DNA of 64,000 bases. Origin: Flavobacteriales bacterium (GTDB lineage Bacteria; Bacteroidota; Bacteroidia; Flavobacteriales_F; PHOS-HE28). The stretch spans positions 768,640 to 832,639 of the forward strand of contig CP129489.1 of assembly GCA_030584065.1 (NCBI GenBank). Reading direction: 5' to 3'. Each line of letters opens with the position of its first letter. Positions within the stretch are counted from its first letter, which is position 1. The position numbers and the translations under genes are program-made. The notes beneath the pieces were generated by a model, which worked only from the letters and a program-made list of their open reading frames with translations, made no database searches and was not told the DNA's origin. Positions 13,366 to 45,025 of this stretch are shown here, one piece after another.

Positions 13366-14769
13366 ATGACTTACCACGAGGTGCCCGAATCGGCATATGC
13401 CGCCTTGATGGCCGTGCTCGGCCCCGAGGGGCTTTCACGCGAGGAGGATGCACGATTGGCCTATGGGCATGACGAGACCGAGGACCTGAGCTACCCGCCT
13501 GCGGTGGTGGCGCGGCCATTGACCACCGCCCAGGTGGCCGAAACGGTGCGGATCTGCGCCCGGCATGCGCTGCCCGTCACCCCGATCGGCGGCCGCACCG
13601 GCCTCAGTGGCGGGGCGCTCTCCGTGCATGGCGGCGTAGGCCTTGCGGTTGACCGCATGAATGCCATCGAGGCCATCGATGAGCGGAATCTGCAGGTGGT
13701 GGTGCAGCCCGGGGTGATCACCCAGGTGCTGCAGGATGCCGTGGCTGCCGCAGGGCTGTATTACCCGCCCGACCCCAGCAGCCGGGGCAGCTGCACCATC
13801 GGCGGGAATATCGCGGAGAACGCCGGCGGCCCGAGGGCGGTGAAATACGGCGTCACCCGCGATTTCGTGCTCAACCTGGAAGTGGTGCTCCCGGGCGGCG
13901 AGGTCATCTGGACCGGGGCGAACACGCTGAAGAACGCTACGGGATACGATCTCACCCGGCTCGTCGTAGGCAGCGAGGGCACCCTCGGCATCATCACCAA
14001 GGCCGTGCTCAAGCTGGTTCCGCTGCCCAAGGAAACGCGGCTGATGCTGGTCCCATTCGCCAGTGCCGAGCGGGCGTGCGAGGCAGTGAGCGCGACCTTC
14101 AGGGCCGGCGTCACTCCCAGTGCCATGGAATTCATGGAGCGCGACGCCATCGCCTGGACGCTTCGCTACACAGAGGGCCTGCCGGCGCAGGTGACCGCCG
14201 ATCCAGGGGCCTATCTGCTGATCGAGGTGGACGGCGACCATGCCGATGCCGTGATGCGGGATTGCGAGACCGTGCTCGGCGTGATGGAAGGGCATGGGGC
14301 CGGGGAGGTGCTCTTCGCGGAGACCAGCGCTGAGAAGGATGCCCTGTGGCGCATGCGACGGAGCGTGCCGGTGAGCGTGAAGGCCCACAGCGTGTACAAG
14401 GAGGAGGATACCGTGGTTCCGCGCTTCGCGCTTCCCCGGCTGCTGGCCGGGGTGAAGGAGATCGGCCGCCGGCATGGATTCACCAGTGTGTGCTACGGAC
14501 ATGCCGGGGATGGGAACCTGCACGTGAACATCATCAAGGGCGACCTCCCCGATGCGTTCTGGGAGCAGGAGCTGCCGAAGGCCATCCGCGAGATCTTCGA
14601 GCTCACCGTATCCCTGGGAGGCACCCTGAGCGGCGAGCATGGCATCGGCCTGGTGCAGCGGCCCTATATGGACATCGCCTTCAGCGATGTGCAGATCGCG
14701 CTCATGCGCGGCATCAAGGCCGCCTTCGATCCCCAGGGAATCATGAATCCCGGCAAGGTGCTGCCTTAG
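13366..14769 (+). CDS. FAD-linked oxidase, GlcD / D-lactate dehydrogenase type
   Basis: A 467-residue flavoprotein oxidising a 2-hydroxy acid such as glycolate or D-lactate. The N-terminal PCMH-type FAD-binding domain (about 40-220) includes PIGGRTGLSGGA, PDPSSRGSCTIGGNIAENAG and VGSEGTLGII. The C-terminal FAD oxidase domain carries YGHAGDGNLHVNII and GTLSGEHGIGLVQRP, which supply flavin- and substrate-binding residues. Length and motifs fit GlcD or Dld2-like enzymes. No GlcE/GlcF subunits are adjacent, so it may act alone. Its ATG is 91 nt from the divergent potassium-channel start. The stop codon overlaps the stop of the convergent MerR gene by 2 nt. Confidence 0.92.
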   Translation: MTYHEVPESAYAALMAVLGPEGLSREEDARLAYGHDETEDLSYPPAVVARPLTTAQVAETVRICARHALPVTPIGGRTGLSGGALSVHGGVGLAVDRMNAIEAIDERNLQVVVQPGVITQVLQDAVAAAGLYYPPDPSSRGSCTIGGNIAENAGGPRAVKYGVTRDFVLNLEVVLPGGEVIWTGANTLKNATGYDLTRLVVGSEGTLGIITKAVLKLVPLPKETRLMLVPFASAERACEAVSATFRAGVTPSAMEFMERDAIAWTLRYTEGLPAQVTADPGAYLLIEVDGDHADAVMRDCETVLGVMEGHGAGEVLFAETSAEKDALWRMRRSVPVSVKAHSVYKEEDTVVPRFALPRLLAGVKEIGRRHGFTSVCYGHAGDGNLHVNIIKGDLPDAFWEQELPKAIREIFELTVSLGGTLSGEHGIGLVQRPYMDIAFSDVQIALMRGIKAAFDPQGIMNPGKVLP

Positions 14770-15656
14770 CGCGGACCGACCAACTCGGCGATCACGGCAT
14801 TCAGGTCGGGCAGCAGCAGCACGCCGCGTGGGGCCTCCTTCTGCGGGATGTGGCGCACGGTGAGCCCGGCGGCAACAAAGCTCACCCGGTCCTCTGGCAT
14901 CGCCTCGCGGAGCTGGGCCAGGTAGGCCTTGGCATCCTCCGGCGCAGGGCGGACCACGAGCAAGGTGATGAACCGGATCGCGCTTCCGTAGAGGGTTACC
15001 ACCTGCCGGAGGTCGCTCTGCGGCACGCTCTGGCCCAAGTAGATGGTCCGTTGGCCATTCGCACGGAGCAGGTAGTTCAGGTACAGCAGCCCCAGTTCAT
15101 GGATCTCGTCCTCTGGAAGATAGAGCACATTGAGGGCTCCTGTGCCCGAAGCCGGCTGCAGCCGCGCGGTATTCACGATGAGGCGCTGCCGCATCAGGTT
15201 GCTCACGAAGTGCTCCTGCGCAGGGCAAATGGCACTGCTCTGCCAGAGGATGCCGATGCGCTCCATGAGCTTCACCAGCACATCCTCTACCAGTGAGCGG
15301 AAGCCATTCTGCTGCTCGTGCTCATCGCAGGTGCGCTCGAAGACCGTCTCATCGAATCCGAGCATGGCCACTACGAGCGTATTGAGGATTCCTTCCGGCG
15401 TGGGCTCACCTTGGGCCGTTTCCCGCACCATGCGCTCCCGCTCTTCAGGGCTCATAGCCGCGATGCGGGAGATCTTGTGACCGTGCTGGTTGAGGAAGGC
15501 GACGTTCAGGATGGTCTTCAGCTCATCCAGGTCATAGGTCCTGATGTTCGTGTCCGTACGGTCCGGTTTCAACAGGCCATAGCGGCGCTCCCAGACCCGG
15601 ATGGTGTGGGCCTTCACGCCGGTGAATTGCTCAAGGTCGCGGATGTGGAACCGCAT
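14766..15656 (-). CDS. CarH/LitR-like MerR-family regulator with B12-binding domain
   Basis: A 296-residue transcription factor. Residues 3-70 are a MerR winged helix (HIRDLEQFTGVKAHTIRVWE, then RRYGLLKPDRTDTNIRTYD). The C-terminal part carries the hallmarks of the light-sensing cobalamin proteins: Trp138, then nine residues, then Glu148-His149 (the W-x9-EH motif capping adenosylcobalamin), and a likely lower cobalt ligand His186 in EIHELG, close to the DxHxxG consensus. Family members repress carotenoid or stress genes in the dark. The start at 15656 matches the usual N-terminus; 15671 is possible. No carotenoid or photolyase gene is adjacent, so targets are unknown. Confidence 0.88.
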   Translation of the reverse strand: MRFHIRDLEQFTGVKAHTIRVWERRYGLLKPDRTDTNIRTYDLDELKTILNVAFLNQHGHKISRIAAMSPEERERMVRETAQGEPTPEGILNTLVVAMLGFDETVFERTCDEHEQQNGFRSLVEDVLVKLMERIGILWQSSAICPAQEHFVSNLMRQRLIVNTARLQPASGTGALNVLYLPEDEIHELGLLYLNYLLRANGQRTIYLGQSVPQSDLRQVVTLYGSAIRFITLLVVRPAPEDAKAYLAQLREAMPEDRVSFVAAGLTVRHIPQKEAPRGVLLLPDLNAVIAELVGPR

Positions 15657-15681
15657 CAGATAAGGACCCATGGGAGTGCGT

Positions 15682-15689
15682 CGAAAGTA
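15682..15689 (-). promoter_or_regulatory. Putative -7 promoter element for the MerR/B12 regulator
   Basis: Minus-strand TACTTTCG, 25 nt before the ATG at 15656. Confidence 0.5.
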
Positions 15690-15750
15690 GCCGGTTGCGT
15701 TACAATTCCGTGACTAAACAGCGAGGGGCGGTGATGGTTCGCAGAAATAG

Positions 15751-15785
15751 GAAGGGGCCCCCTCCAAACCATCGGGGGCCCCTTC
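15751..15785 (-). terminator. Intrinsic terminator of the DUF4397 gene
   Basis: A perfect 12-bp inverted repeat (GAAGGGGCCCCC and its complement) around an 11-nt loop lies just past the stop of the minus-strand gene at 15809. The following T-tract is short (CCTATTTCTGC), so it is a strong hairpin with a weak U-run. Confidence 0.75.
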
Positions 15786-15808
15786 GCGACAGACGTCGCC
15801 ACGAGGAA

Positions 15809-17566
15809 TCAGCGGGCGATCATCAGCGGGATGCTGCGCACGAGGTTCTCACCGCGGAGCGCCACCGTGTAGGTGCCGTTGGCCAGACCGCTGGTCTCGA
15901 TGGCGAGCTGGGTGGAGCCTTGGGCGAATTGGCGGGTACCGAGGGACTGCACCGTGCGGCCGGCGGCATCCAGGATGCTCACCTCGGCCACGGTGCCCTC
16001 CATCGCCACGGCATTCAGCAGGGCGCCGTCGTTTGCAGGATTCGGCCACACGCTCAGTTCGCTGACCGAGCCATTCAGCTCGCTGACGCTGGTGACGACG
16101 GGCAGTTGCAGCAGATCACCACCCAGGGGCGAAGCCACCCAGAGCCCGAAGGCAGGACCGTTGCTGTTGTTGGCAGGAGCGAGGAATCCGCTCGCCAGCA
16201 CGGTGAGAGCAGCGCCTTCAAGGTTCAGCGTCTGCAGCGGAGCCGAGTAGGTGGCCACGGTGGTGGCGCCATCTGCGGTGCGGATCTGCACAGTGAAGTC
16301 GAGCGTCGGGAGCTCCAGGTAGCCATTGAATTCAGCATAGGCGAGATCGTCCACGATCGTGGTGTTCACCACAGCGCTCTCGAACACATCCACGGTGGGG
16401 GCATCGGTGGCGCCATGGAACACCAGCACATCGGTTCCAGGGCCCTGTGCAGCTTCCCGGGCGCCAGCGAACACATGGAGGTCGAAGGGCACGGCCGGAT
16501 CGTATCCGCTTGGGCTCACGATACCGTTGGCCACGAGCACATAGGTCTCCCCATCGGCCAGGTTGTAGGTGAAGGTGAGGCCTGGGATGATGTCCTGCGG
16601 CCCGGTGCTGTTGCCCGGAGCGATGCCGATCTCCAGGTCAACGCCGGCGGGCAGGTCGATGAAGGGGGTGGCGGTGCGGAAGGCGAAGTCGTTGATGGCC
16701 GGCTCAGCACCGCCATTGATGTACACGTCCACCACGGCAGCGGCGGCATCGGCGCAGTTGTGGATCACCTGCACACGGGCGGTGGGGTCGGCACCGGCGA
16801 GGGGCAGTTCAACGAGGGGGCCGCCGCTGGGCAGGGCCACCCATACGCCGAAGGCGGGTCCGTTGCTGTTGTTGGCGGGGTTGAGGAAACCGCTGGCCAC
16901 GGCCACGAGCGCGGCATCGGCGAGGCCGAGGGTGGCCAGGGGGGCGTCATAGGCCACCACGGGCGTGCCGTCGGGCAATTGGATCTCCAGGGTCAGGTCC
17001 ACGGCGGGCACTTCCAGGTAGTCGGCGGTGAACTCGCCGAAGCTGAAGGGAGGCACCACCACGGCGCCGCCGAGCACGGCGGTCTCGGCCACCTGCACGG
17101 TGGGGGCATCGGTGCTGCCGTGGATCACCAGGATGTCGGTGTTGCCGGCGACAGCGGCGGCCTCGCGGCCGGGGGCGAAGACGTCAAGGCCGAAGGCCGG
17201 GGCCGGATTGTATCCGCTTGGGCTCACGATACCGTTGGCCACGAGCACATAGGTCTCCCCATCGGCCAGGTTGTAGGTGAAGGTGAGGCCTGGGATGATG
17301 TCCTGCGGCCCGGTGCTGTTGCCCGGAGCGATGCCGATCTCCAGGTCAACGCCGGCGGGCAGGTCGATGAAGGGGGTGGCGGTGCGGAAGGCGAAGTCGT
17401 TGATGGCCGGCACTGCACCGCCGTTCACGTACACATCCACCACACCAGCAGCGGCGTCAGCGGAATTATGGATGACCTGCACACGCGCAGTCTGGGCAGC
17501 AGCGGTCAGGCAGAGGGCCGCTGCCATTCCGGTAGCGGCTGATCGAAGAGTAGGGCTTGGGAACAT
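15809..17566 (-). CDS. Secreted protein with tandem DUF4397 domains and T9SS type A sorting domain
   Basis: A 585-residue protein. The ATG at 17566 gives a signal peptide ending AAAQT; an upstream ATG at 17605 would extend it. Two long homologous halves follow, each beginning ARVQVIHNSADAA or ARVQVIHNCADAA and each with a DUF4397 signature (VDVYVNGG, INDFAFRTATPF, DLEIGIAPGN). The DNA of the two halves shares a 201-bp perfect repeat. The last 80 residues (SVWPNPANDGALL to the C-terminus) are a type A T9SS sorting domain. DUF4397 proteins are extracellular, with no settled function. A strong terminator follows, and an inverted repeat lies just before the start codon. Confidence 0.9.
   Translation of the reverse strand: MFPSPTLRSAATGMAAALCLTAAAQTARVQVIHNSADAAAGVVDVYVNGGAVPAINDFAFRTATPFIDLPAGVDLEIGIAPGNSTGPQDIIPGLTFTYNLADGETYVLVANGIVSPSGYNPAPAFGLDVFAPGREAAAVAGNTDILVIHGSTDAPTVQVAETAVLGGAVVVPPFSFGEFTADYLEVPAVDLTLEIQLPDGTPVVAYDAPLATLGLADAALVAVASGFLNPANNSNGPAFGVWVALPSGGPLVELPLAGADPTARVQVIHNCADAAAAVVDVYINGGAEPAINDFAFRTATPFIDLPAGVDLEIGIAPGNSTGPQDIIPGLTFTYNLADGETYVLVANGIVSPSGYDPAVPFDLHVFAGAREAAQGPGTDVLVFHGATDAPTVDVFESAVVNTTIVDDLAYAEFNGYLELPTLDFTVQIRTADGATTVATYSAPLQTLNLEGAALTVLASGFLAPANNSNGPAFGLWVASPLGGDLLQLPVVTSVSELNGSVSELSVWPNPANDGALLNAVAMEGTVAEVSILDAAGRTVQSLGTRQFAQGSTQLAIETSGLANGTYTVALRGENLVRSIPLMIAR
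16503..16703. repeat. 201-bp perfect direct repeat, copy 1
   Basis: Identical base for base to 17211-17411, 708 bp away, inside the same gene. It encodes the stretch from INDFAFRTATPF to IVSPSGY. Flanking sequence on both sides is clearly diverged. Confidence 0.95.
17211..17411. repeat. 201-bp perfect direct repeat, copy 2
   Basis: Second copy of the repeat at 16503-16703, same orientation and same reading frame, in the N-terminal DUF4397 half. Confidence 0.95.
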
Positions 17567-17567
17567 G

Positions 17568-17597
17568 GGTGTTGTGTTTTTAGTGACAACACCTCCT
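17568..17597 (-). promoter_or_regulatory. 5'-UTR hairpin and SD-like sequence before the DUF4397 gene
   Basis: On the mRNA strand an 8-bp inverted repeat GGTGTTGT / ACAACACC (17586-17593 and 17568-17575, 10-nt loop) ends one base before the ATG. The upstream arm overlaps AGGAGGTG (17590-17597), a full anti-16S match that is rare in this genome and too far (23 nt) from the ATG unless the hairpin folds. Confidence 0.4.
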
Positions 17598-17675
17598 GAA
17601 CACATCCCATCAGCCTTTGTTCATCGACCAGGCTTAAATGTTGGACATTTTAACAAATCTGCAGCGTGGGCTCGA

Positions 17676-20438
17676 CTACCTCACGATGGTCAGGTGTCCG
17701 AAGAGCTCGTAGACGTCCTTCTTGACCGCATCCACGGCGTAGGCCCTGAAGGCATAAACGCCGTTGGGCACCTCCCGGCCTCCAGCCGTTCCATCCCACT
17801 CGGCCCAAGGGTCATTGGTGCCATAGAGCACGCCTCCCCAGCGGTCGAAAACCTGCATTTCGAAGGATTCCAGTTCCACCACATTGATGATGGGCTTGAA
17901 GGTGTCATTGAATCCGTCGCCGTTCGGAGAGAAGGCGTTGGCCACATAGAAGACATACTCCTGAGGCTTCAGGTGGGCCACGATGGTGTCCGTGGTGTAG
18001 AACCGGGCCGTTTGGGCGCGCTCCAGAGTATCACCCGGCAGGTATTCGTTCACCGTGACGTTCTTGAAGTCCCAGTGGAGGAAATCGTAGTAGAGCGTGG
18101 GGTTGATGTGGAAGGGGACGTCCACATCCTCGCCAGCGGAGGCGATGGCCGGGAACGAGCTGTAAGTGACGCCGTCGAAGGTGATGGTTCCGGCCCCCCT
18201 GGGCACCACATCGAGCATCACATCGTAGCGGATGGGCGGGATGAAATGGGCCACGATGCTGTCTGCGCCGATGAAGTCGACCCGAACGATGGAATCGGTG
18301 AGCGTGGGCGTGAGGGTGTTGCCTTGGAACACCTCCCAATGGCTGAAGACGTAGCCATCGGCCGCGCGGGCTTCCAAGGTGGTGTTGATGCCGCCGTAAT
18401 AGGTGCCGCTGAAGGGGTAGGCCTCCGGGGTGATGCTGTTGATCTGGATCTCGCCGCTCAGCGGCGGATTCACGTTGAAGACGACCTCCCAAGGACCGGC
18501 CAAGGTGTAGCAGTCGATGAGGCCCTGCTGGATGGTGACGCAGCGGGCTTCGATGAAGTCGCGCAAGTTCTGCACGTTGGCTTGCCAGCCGGCCATGCTG
18601 CCGCCCCATCGCGCGATCTGCGCCGGCATCTCGGGTTCGATGTTGTTGATCAGGCTGTCGAGGAAGGGGACCATGAAATCGCAGTGGAACAGCGTATTCC
18701 CTAGGTCGATATAGCGATTGATGTACCAATCATGCACGGTGGGGTTCTCGTTCAGCAGCTTCTGGAGGATGTCCGTATGGCCTTGGCCGCCCGGGTTGGG
18801 CAGGTTCTCCACATTGCACGGGTCCGCATTCGCCGTCTGGTCAGGGATGCCGGTGAAATTGGTGTAGTGGCCGAAGGTGGCATCCATGTCCCAGAGGATG
18901 TAGCCCCATTTCTTGTGCTCCCCGGCCGGATTGAAGCCGCGCCACCAGCCGGTGTTCCAATTGAGCCAGTCGGCGCATACGGTGTAGCTGTTCAGGCAGA
19001 AGTAGTCGATCAGGCTCTTCCAGTTCAACTGGCTGTCCACATAGGCGAAGGCAGCGGGGTCGCCCATGTTGTTGGACATGATGTAGTTGACGAGCGCATC
19101 CCAGTCCGTTTGCGCCTGCGGGCCGCCGTATTCGCTCCAGGTTCCGCCCCAGGTCTTGATGAACTGGATGTCGAACTCATCCTGGTCATAATAGTACTTG
19201 GTGAAGTCGTGGTCATCGACCTTCTCGCGCATGTCGTAGACCCCCCAGTACTGTCCGTTGACATACAGCACGGCCGGTTCGTAGCTGCGCTCATCCAGCC
19301 GCAGATTGCCCACCTGGCTGAGCGCCTGCACGTAGGCATCGCGGATATGGGCGGGCTGCCCGGGGCCGGAGTCGTAGTTGTCGCCGGCCGCGGCCTTCAC
19401 GATGAGCCGCTGGTAGGAATCGCGGTCCGATGTGCGGAAGATGGGGTAATCGATGGCGTTGCCCTGCCCGAATTGGTCGCGTGTCACGTAATCGAAGCCG
19501 CGTTGCGGATAGGCCCAGCTATCCTGGCCATGCTCGTCGAAGGTGCCTTCCGCTTCATCGCGGAGCGCGCCATCGGCTCCGAAGTACTCGAAGCAGCCCA
19601 CGGGCTCGATGCCGCCGTTCCCGTTCAGCAGTGCGAGGAGGTCGTCGCCGCTCACGCTCAGCACGGCCACGCCATGAGTGGCATTGATGAAGTAGGTATT
19701 GGTCTCCACGAAGCTGGGCGGCACGCCCGGTGTCCCGCTGAAGGCCCTTGCGCGAAGCACGGTGGTGGCGTTGATGGCGATGGGGCCGGCGTATGCGGCG
19801 CTTGCGGGAGTGGGGGTGCTGCCATCCGTGGTGTACCGTATGGTGACGCCTGCGGTGGCTGAGGCCAAGGTGACGCTGATGGGACCGCCATGATAACCCG
19901 GGGGCTGGCTCATCGTGGGCTTGGCAGGGTAGTACGGCCCCGCACCTGCATTGGCGGCATTCGGGGTGGGGGCGGTGAACAGCGCCCACGTGCCGGCGCC
20001 ATCCGTGGTGCGCCCCCAGCTATGGTCGGCTTGGGTCTGTTCGCCGAACTGGAAGTTGTCCACGATTGCACCGCCGGCATCGCTCAGCACCGCACGCTCG
20101 CCTTGCGATTGGCTGATGTTGAAGCTCGTGTGGAAGGGGGGCGCAGTTGTGTTGCGACCGCTGCAGAAGATCAGCAGCCGACCTCCTCCCGCGATGGTTG
20201 TGCCGCCCGGGAATTGCCACTTCAGGTTGTTGTTCTGGCTGTCGCTGAGGTACCAGCCGCTGATGTCCGCCGCCGCCCCGCCTGTGTTGTAGAGTTCGAT
20301 CCAGTCCTCCCGCTTCCCGAAGCCGTCCACAATGCCGGTCCAGTTGGCCGCGCACACTTCATTGATCACCACCTGCGCGCAGGCGGGTGCGATGCTGAGC
20401 AGGCCGGCGAATGGCAGGGTTCGATAACGGAGCTTCAT
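17676..20438 (-). CDS. Secreted CotH-kinase-family protein with lamin-tail domain and T9SS type B sorting domain
   Basis: A 920-residue exported protein. The start at 20438 gives a signal peptide (ending ACAQ); the frame's upstream extension has none. Order of domains: lamin-tail-like (about 20-145, VVINEVCAANWTG, WIELYNTGG), a chitobiase-like beta domain (about 170-240, ITIRYTTDGSTPTP pattern), a CotH kinase core (about 250-640) with a DxD-type metal site in YILWDMDATFGHY, InlB/bacterial repeat-like segments (GYVFSHWEVFQGN), and a type B gliding C-terminal domain from VANAFSPNGDGFNDTF. CotH proteins are atypical kinases that phosphorylate secreted or spore-coat proteins; the substrate here is unknown. 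Confidence 0.88.
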   Translation of the reverse strand: MKLRYRTLPFAGLLSIAPACAQVVINEVCAANWTGIVDGFGKREDWIELYNTGGAAADISGWYLSDSQNNNLKWQFPGGTTIAGGGRLLIFCSGRNTTAPPFHTSFNISQSQGERAVLSDAGGAIVDNFQFGEQTQADHSWGRTTDGAGTWALFTAPTPNAANAGAGPYYPAKPTMSQPPGYHGGPISVTLASATAGVTIRYTTDGSTPTPASAAYAGPIAINATTVLRARAFSGTPGVPPSFVETNTYFINATHGVAVLSVSGDDLLALLNGNGGIEPVGCFEYFGADGALRDEAEGTFDEHGQDSWAYPQRGFDYVTRDQFGQGNAIDYPIFRTSDRDSYQRLIVKAAAGDNYDSGPGQPAHIRDAYVQALSQVGNLRLDERSYEPAVLYVNGQYWGVYDMREKVDDHDFTKYYYDQDEFDIQFIKTWGGTWSEYGGPQAQTDWDALVNYIMSNNMGDPAAFAYVDSQLNWKSLIDYFCLNSYTVCADWLNWNTGWWRGFNPAGEHKKWGYILWDMDATFGHYTNFTGIPDQTANADPCNVENLPNPGGQGHTDILQKLLNENPTVHDWYINRYIDLGNTLFHCDFMVPFLDSLINNIEPEMPAQIARWGGSMAGWQANVQNLRDFIEARCVTIQQGLIDCYTLAGPWEVVFNVNPPLSGEIQINSITPEAYPFSGTYYGGINTTLEARAADGYVFSHWEVFQGNTLTPTLTDSIVRVDFIGADSIVAHFIPPIRYDVMLDVVPRGAGTITFDGVTYSSFPAIASAGEDVDVPFHINPTLYYDFLHWDFKNVTVNEYLPGDTLERAQTARFYTTDTIVAHLKPQEYVFYVANAFSPNGDGFNDTFKPIINVVELESFEMQVFDRWGGVLYGTNDPWAEWDGTAGGREVPNGVYAFRAYAVDAVKKDVYELFGHLTIVR

Positions 20439-42274: not shown

Positions 42275-42460
42275 TCACCCCCTTCCCTCCTTGATCTCCT
42301 CCACTACCGCCGGATCCAAGAGGGTGGAGGTATCTCCCAGGCTCCCCAATTCATTCTCCGCCACCTTCCTTAAGATCCGCCGCATGATCTTGCCGCTGCG
42401 CGTCTTGGGCGGGCCGTTCACGAACTGGATCTTGTCCGGCTTGGCGATACGGCCGGTCAT
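42275..42460 (-). pseudogene. Remnant copy of the acs 3' end
   Basis: Encodes [20 protein letters not shown], then [20 protein letters not shown] and onward to the usual acs C-terminus. It is a diverged copy (mid-80s percent identity by eye, not computed) of the last 60 codons of acs at 42947-43132. It begins immediately at the toxin stop codon and lacks everything upstream, so it cannot form an enzyme. An in-frame ATG at 42460 overlaps the toxin stop, but translation would give only an AMP-binding C-terminal fragment. Confidence 0.88.
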
Positions 42461-42946: not shown

Positions 42947-44860
<1,914 letters not shown>

Positions 44861-44923
44861 GGTGCGGACGAAGTTGGCGGTTCGGATTAAGGAACCCAAG
44901 GGGGCGCTGTCAAGCGATTTCGT

Positions 44924-44931
44924 CGAAAGTA
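44924..44931 (-). promoter_or_regulatory. Putative -7 promoter element for acs
   Basis: Minus-strand TACTTTCG, 63 nt before the acs ATG at 44860. Confidence 0.45.
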
Positions 44932-45025
44932 TTTCGCGATTCGTCTTGACTTCCGGTGGCTCCGCCTGAAATCTTGCGGCACTCTTCACGCTGACAGCAC
45001 CCACTCAACACCTCCCGCGCAACCC

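Follow-up and report, generated by a model that had tools for sequence, protein, structure and literature searches.

Introduction

In the portion of the study available to us, Periscope Proteins such as SasG, Rib, Sgo_0707 and CdrA are described as carrying long identical DNA repeats that are thought to drive intragenic recombination (PMC8201768). In these proteins a rod-like stalk made of the repeats presents a binding domain, and the scan reported there retained tandem repeats of more than 50 residues with an identity of at least 80% (PMC8201768). Gene conversion between homologous sequences of one chromosome has been described for tufA and tufB of Salmonella where, according to the accessible part of that report, a continuous tract is transferred non-reciprocally and large sequence differences block the process (PMC5485169).

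Here we describe an exact DNA repeat within a single gene of the window, by which we mean the whole 64-kb stretch of DNA that was analysed. We are confident, though short of certain, that it goes back to recent intragenic recombination, whether by conversion or by the gain of a unit and a later loss. The protein concerned has tandem domains and is predicted to be secreted.

Results

The gene is composed as follows, the two tract copies being those returned by the exact repeat search:

15809..17605, minus strand: 598-aa gene with a leader region, two units of two DUF4397 domains each and a T9SS type A sorting tail
16784..17488, minus strand: unit 1, 235 aa, two DUF4397 domains
17210..17411, minus strand: tract copy of unit 1, towards the 5' end of the gene
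16082..16780, minus strand: unit 2, 233 aa, two DUF4397 domains
16502..16703, minus strand: identical tract, copy in unit 2
15845..16051, minus strand: sorting tail, Por_Secre_tail, residues 519-587

DUF4397 (PF14344) matched four stretches of the product with 100.2 bits, against a Pfam gathering score of 30.6, and the two units shared 72% protein identity. The C-terminal sorting domain TIGR04183 scored 27.5 bits (curated cut-off 23). Because of this T9SS type A sorting tail, the 598-aa product is predicted to be secreted by the T9SS and to reside at the cell surface or in the medium. The genome holds 12 matches to PorP/SprF, a family linked to the T9SS. DUF4397 matches in the whole genome were confined to this one gene, and the other unit is therefore the only evident donor for either copy of the tract. 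A search of plasmid records gave no match. The adjoining gene at 14766-15671 encodes a MerR-type regulator; its best NCBIfam match was CarH with 94.4 bits, far below the cut-off of 400 bits.

A structure model of unit 1 alone, calculated from an alignment of 66 out of 82 complete units collected, was all-beta with a mean pLDDT of 94.5. It was closest to the extracellular domain of PepT2 and PepT1, two mammalian peptide transporters, with Z scores from 14.2 to 13.0 over 175-180 aligned residues at an rmsd of 3.0-3.4, after which the entries dropped to Z 7.4. The PepT extracellular domain is a pair of Ig-like domains. The modelled likeness may offer a clue to how DUF4397 folds and what it does, a shared fold being no proof of a shared function. 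A sequence search against solved structures found no match at E 0.1, and, to judge from titles and the opening lines of abstracts, none of the papers listed for DUF4397 seemed relevant here.

The exact direct repeat measured 202 bp, with a start-to-start distance of 708 bp or 236 codons that keeps the copies in register, and both copies lay wholly within the minus-strand gene. A preliminary description of this DNA had reported a perfect direct repeat in the DUF4397 gene; this was correct, but the length of 201 bp and the starts at 16503 and 17211 given there have to be replaced by 202 bp, 16502 and 17210. Its observation of identical copies between divergent flanks held as well, since the units differed at many positions outside the tract and the best registered 300-nt copy reached 91% identity. 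No other exact same-strand repeat of at least 30 bp in the window was as long, the runner-up measuring 38 bp. When the codon columns of the alignment of unit 1 and unit 2 were shuffled, none of 10,000 permutations reached a run of 202 nt (mean 23.6, maximum 59), and chance was rejected as the source of the repeat. As a sample of the same genome, 20 stretches of 20 kb each were taken at even intervals (400 kb of 3.92 Mb). They held a single locus, arrayed at a spacing of 42 bp, in which exact direct copies of at least 40 bp lay within 5 kb of each other.

Two repeats other than the tract were recorded in passing. The 38-bp exact direct repeat lies at 42354-42391 and 43026-43063 with a spacing of 672 bp, its second copy being inside a 685-aa frame (42947-45004, minus strand). 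Beyond the window, the same genome carries at L149:8127-8380 an array of exact repeats spaced by 42 bp or multiples thereof, where more than one frame is open.

Of the codons that encode the same residue in both units, 67/67 were identical inside the tract as opposed to 54/99 outside, the two sides of the tract giving 12/22 and 42/77. The protein segment encoded by the tract is well conserved across units, which would be compatible with a constraint on the DNA itself, be it on exact coding bases or on an embedded RNA element, that keeps the copies identical without any recombination. We hold this explanation to be next to negligible. Silent differences between species were observed in the tract, and when unit 1 of the window was compared with unit 1 of its close relative G043 over domain 1 (alignment columns 1 to 300), same-residue codons matched in only 59 of 91 cases, so that silent sites in domain 1 are free to change; moreover, no Rfam family reached its gathering score in 15000-18500.

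Within the tract, the two window units resembled each other more than they did the units of the nearest relative. Over this bounded stretch, paralogous units of one gene were thus closer to each other than to their orthologues. As the copies are identical over 202 bp, their divergence is bounded at about 1.5% (rule of three), which is of the same order as the difference between the two genomes of the species. As to the direction of transfer, one 30-codon stretch of the tract was nearer to unit 1 of G043 than to the other G043 unit (80 vs 66% third-position identity); other 30-codon stretches did not lean towards unit 1 in this way, and homogenisation has affected G043 as well.

A second genome of the species, the MAG G001, whose long aligned segments were 99.0 to 99.8% identical to the window, shows runs of N in place of 17213-17387 and 16517-16679, that is, inside both copies of the tract. 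A third N-run in the 12 kb examined is located elsewhere, and record DDRC01000241.1 (Flavobacteriales bacterium UBA2426) has the same N-runs as G001. A private error of the window's assembly is unlikely because these gaps sit inside exactly the two copies. That an assembler wrote one copy over the other in the consensus appears very improbable to us: gaps within both copies are expected of a true repeat that could not be resolved, and similar, older homogenised segments that have since acquired differences occur in three relatives, G009, G043 and G037. The N-runs of G001 might conceivably be due to masking by operators, but as they match both copies, an unresolved true repeat is the natural reading. 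Since the gaps fall inside the array, the G001 strain may have a third unit.

The repeat part of the gene had a strong match (E below 1e-30) in 32 of 45 genomes of the genus; in the other 13 the match was weak and mostly concerned the sorting tail. In a tree of domain 1, the two window units were sisters with a support of 0.98, and the last two units were sisters in G043 (0.84), G009 (0.86) and G037 (0.99) as well. In the tree of domain 2 each of these four pairs lost its exclusiveness, and the tree placed unit 1 of the window in a clade with unit 1 of G043 and units 1-2 of G009 (0.88). In 4 of 28 pairs of penultimate and last units, same-residue codon identity was far higher in domain 1 than in domain 2, namely in G009 (0.85/0.42), the window (0.89/0.53), G037 (0.83/0.51) and G043 (0.82/0.57, its two units sitting on two contigs); the window and G043 are close relatives and make up two of these four cases. 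Fitted high-identity segments ended at unit codons 82 to 107 in all four.

A general excess of domain 1 over domain 2 across all genes was discarded as not distinctive. Foreign control pairs picked by whole-unit identity showed it too (domain 1 above domain 2 in 63/82), and pairs picked by domain-2 identity leaned the opposite way (25/82). Because the foreign controls share the mean excess in domain 1, only the strong cases count. In domain 1, 24 of 75 units had a nearest neighbour from their own gene, and in domain 2 this held for 15 of 75. Most units of the genus cluster by position and not by gene, and homogenisation is therefore occasional.

In G043 the gene is split over contigs L044 and L045, whose ends share exactly 147 bp near a unit end. 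This suggests a branch in the assembly, perhaps with a further unit hidden in it.

The comparison of homologues for repeat number proposed in the preliminary description indeed revealed variation: the 26 complete arrays of the genus had 2 (10), 3 (12) or 4 units (4). This count leaves aside arrays with a contig end in them (G002, G010, G021, G031, G036 and G043), G044, where the frame runs to the contig end, and the gapped G001. G026a and G038a are second, divergent 2-unit copies in genomes that also hold a 3-unit gene, and in G005 the frame opens within the first unit, the longer reading containing a TAG. Among 78 loci of named relatives, a set that partially overlaps with that of the genus, complete frames holding one full unit or more had 1 (8), 2 (42), 3 (15), 4 (4) or 5 units (1); 7 frames cut by the end of the stretch and 3 without a full unit were left uncounted. 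The in-frame change of unit number that had been predicted was thus supported between species, with 2-4 units per array within the genus and 1 to 5 across the wider set.

Discussion

The data fit a scheme in which the two units would be old duplicates and homologous recombination between them would recently have overwritten about 202 bp in the first domain of one unit. We infer this mechanism from the sequence. The overwriting could have come about by non-reciprocal gene conversion or by unequal crossing-over in which a unit was gained and, at a different breakpoint, one was later lost. The same process recurs in the relatives and, together with unequal exchange, would account for in-frame differences in unit number between species. 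The preliminary description had proposed a recent gene conversion between the two halves of the gene. Its essential part, recent recombination, is supported by the codon counts inside and outside the tract, by the trees and by the recurrence in relatives; conversion proper is indistinguishable from gain then loss, since both leave the same product.

In the route by gain and loss, an unequal crossover would first have produced a third unit and a later crossover elsewhere would have removed one, with no conversion at all. Relatives with 3 and 4 units do exist, and in G009 units 1 and 2 resemble each other from end to end, as they would if a unit had been gained recently. This history nevertheless needs two events where conversion needs one, and no 3-unit form was seen in the species, whose second genome, G001, is gapped in the array. 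We regard it as possible but rather unlikely. As for the confinement to domain 1, selection might restrict homogenisation to this domain as a shared, recombination-friendly part and leave domain 2 diverse as a variable binding part, an idea to which we attach little probability. If it were true, unit number could change in frame while distinct second domains were retained, and the gene would illustrate how such proteins change length yet keep these domains. Novelty would lie in such selection or in a switching of domain number within a population, if either were true. What the locus offers is a clean case from an uncultured Flavobacteriales genus, in which the gene of a tandem-domain protein with predicted secretion recently recombined internally, and it flags a gene that may go wrong in fragmented assemblies.

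Compared with the Periscope Proteins as presented in the available part of their description, the gene shares tandem globular domains, a predicted surface or secreted location, a repeat number that differs between relatives and long identical DNA repeats (PMC8201768). Unlike there, identity is limited to one tract, a separate ligand-binding head is missing and the variation in repeat number is one between species, not strains. Whole units are 72% identical, which is below the 80% of the scan, although our figure is not a T-REKS value (PMC8201768). Because of this lower identity, and because variation is known here between species, we did not file the gene as a Periscope Protein. With tufA and tufB, as far as the accessible text of that report goes, it has in common that a continuous tract was probably transferred between homologous sequences of one chromosome (PMC5485169); it differs in that donor and recipient lie within one gene at a distance of 708 bp, and in that the event was deduced from sequence. 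All in all, the repeat illustrates a known kind of process well.
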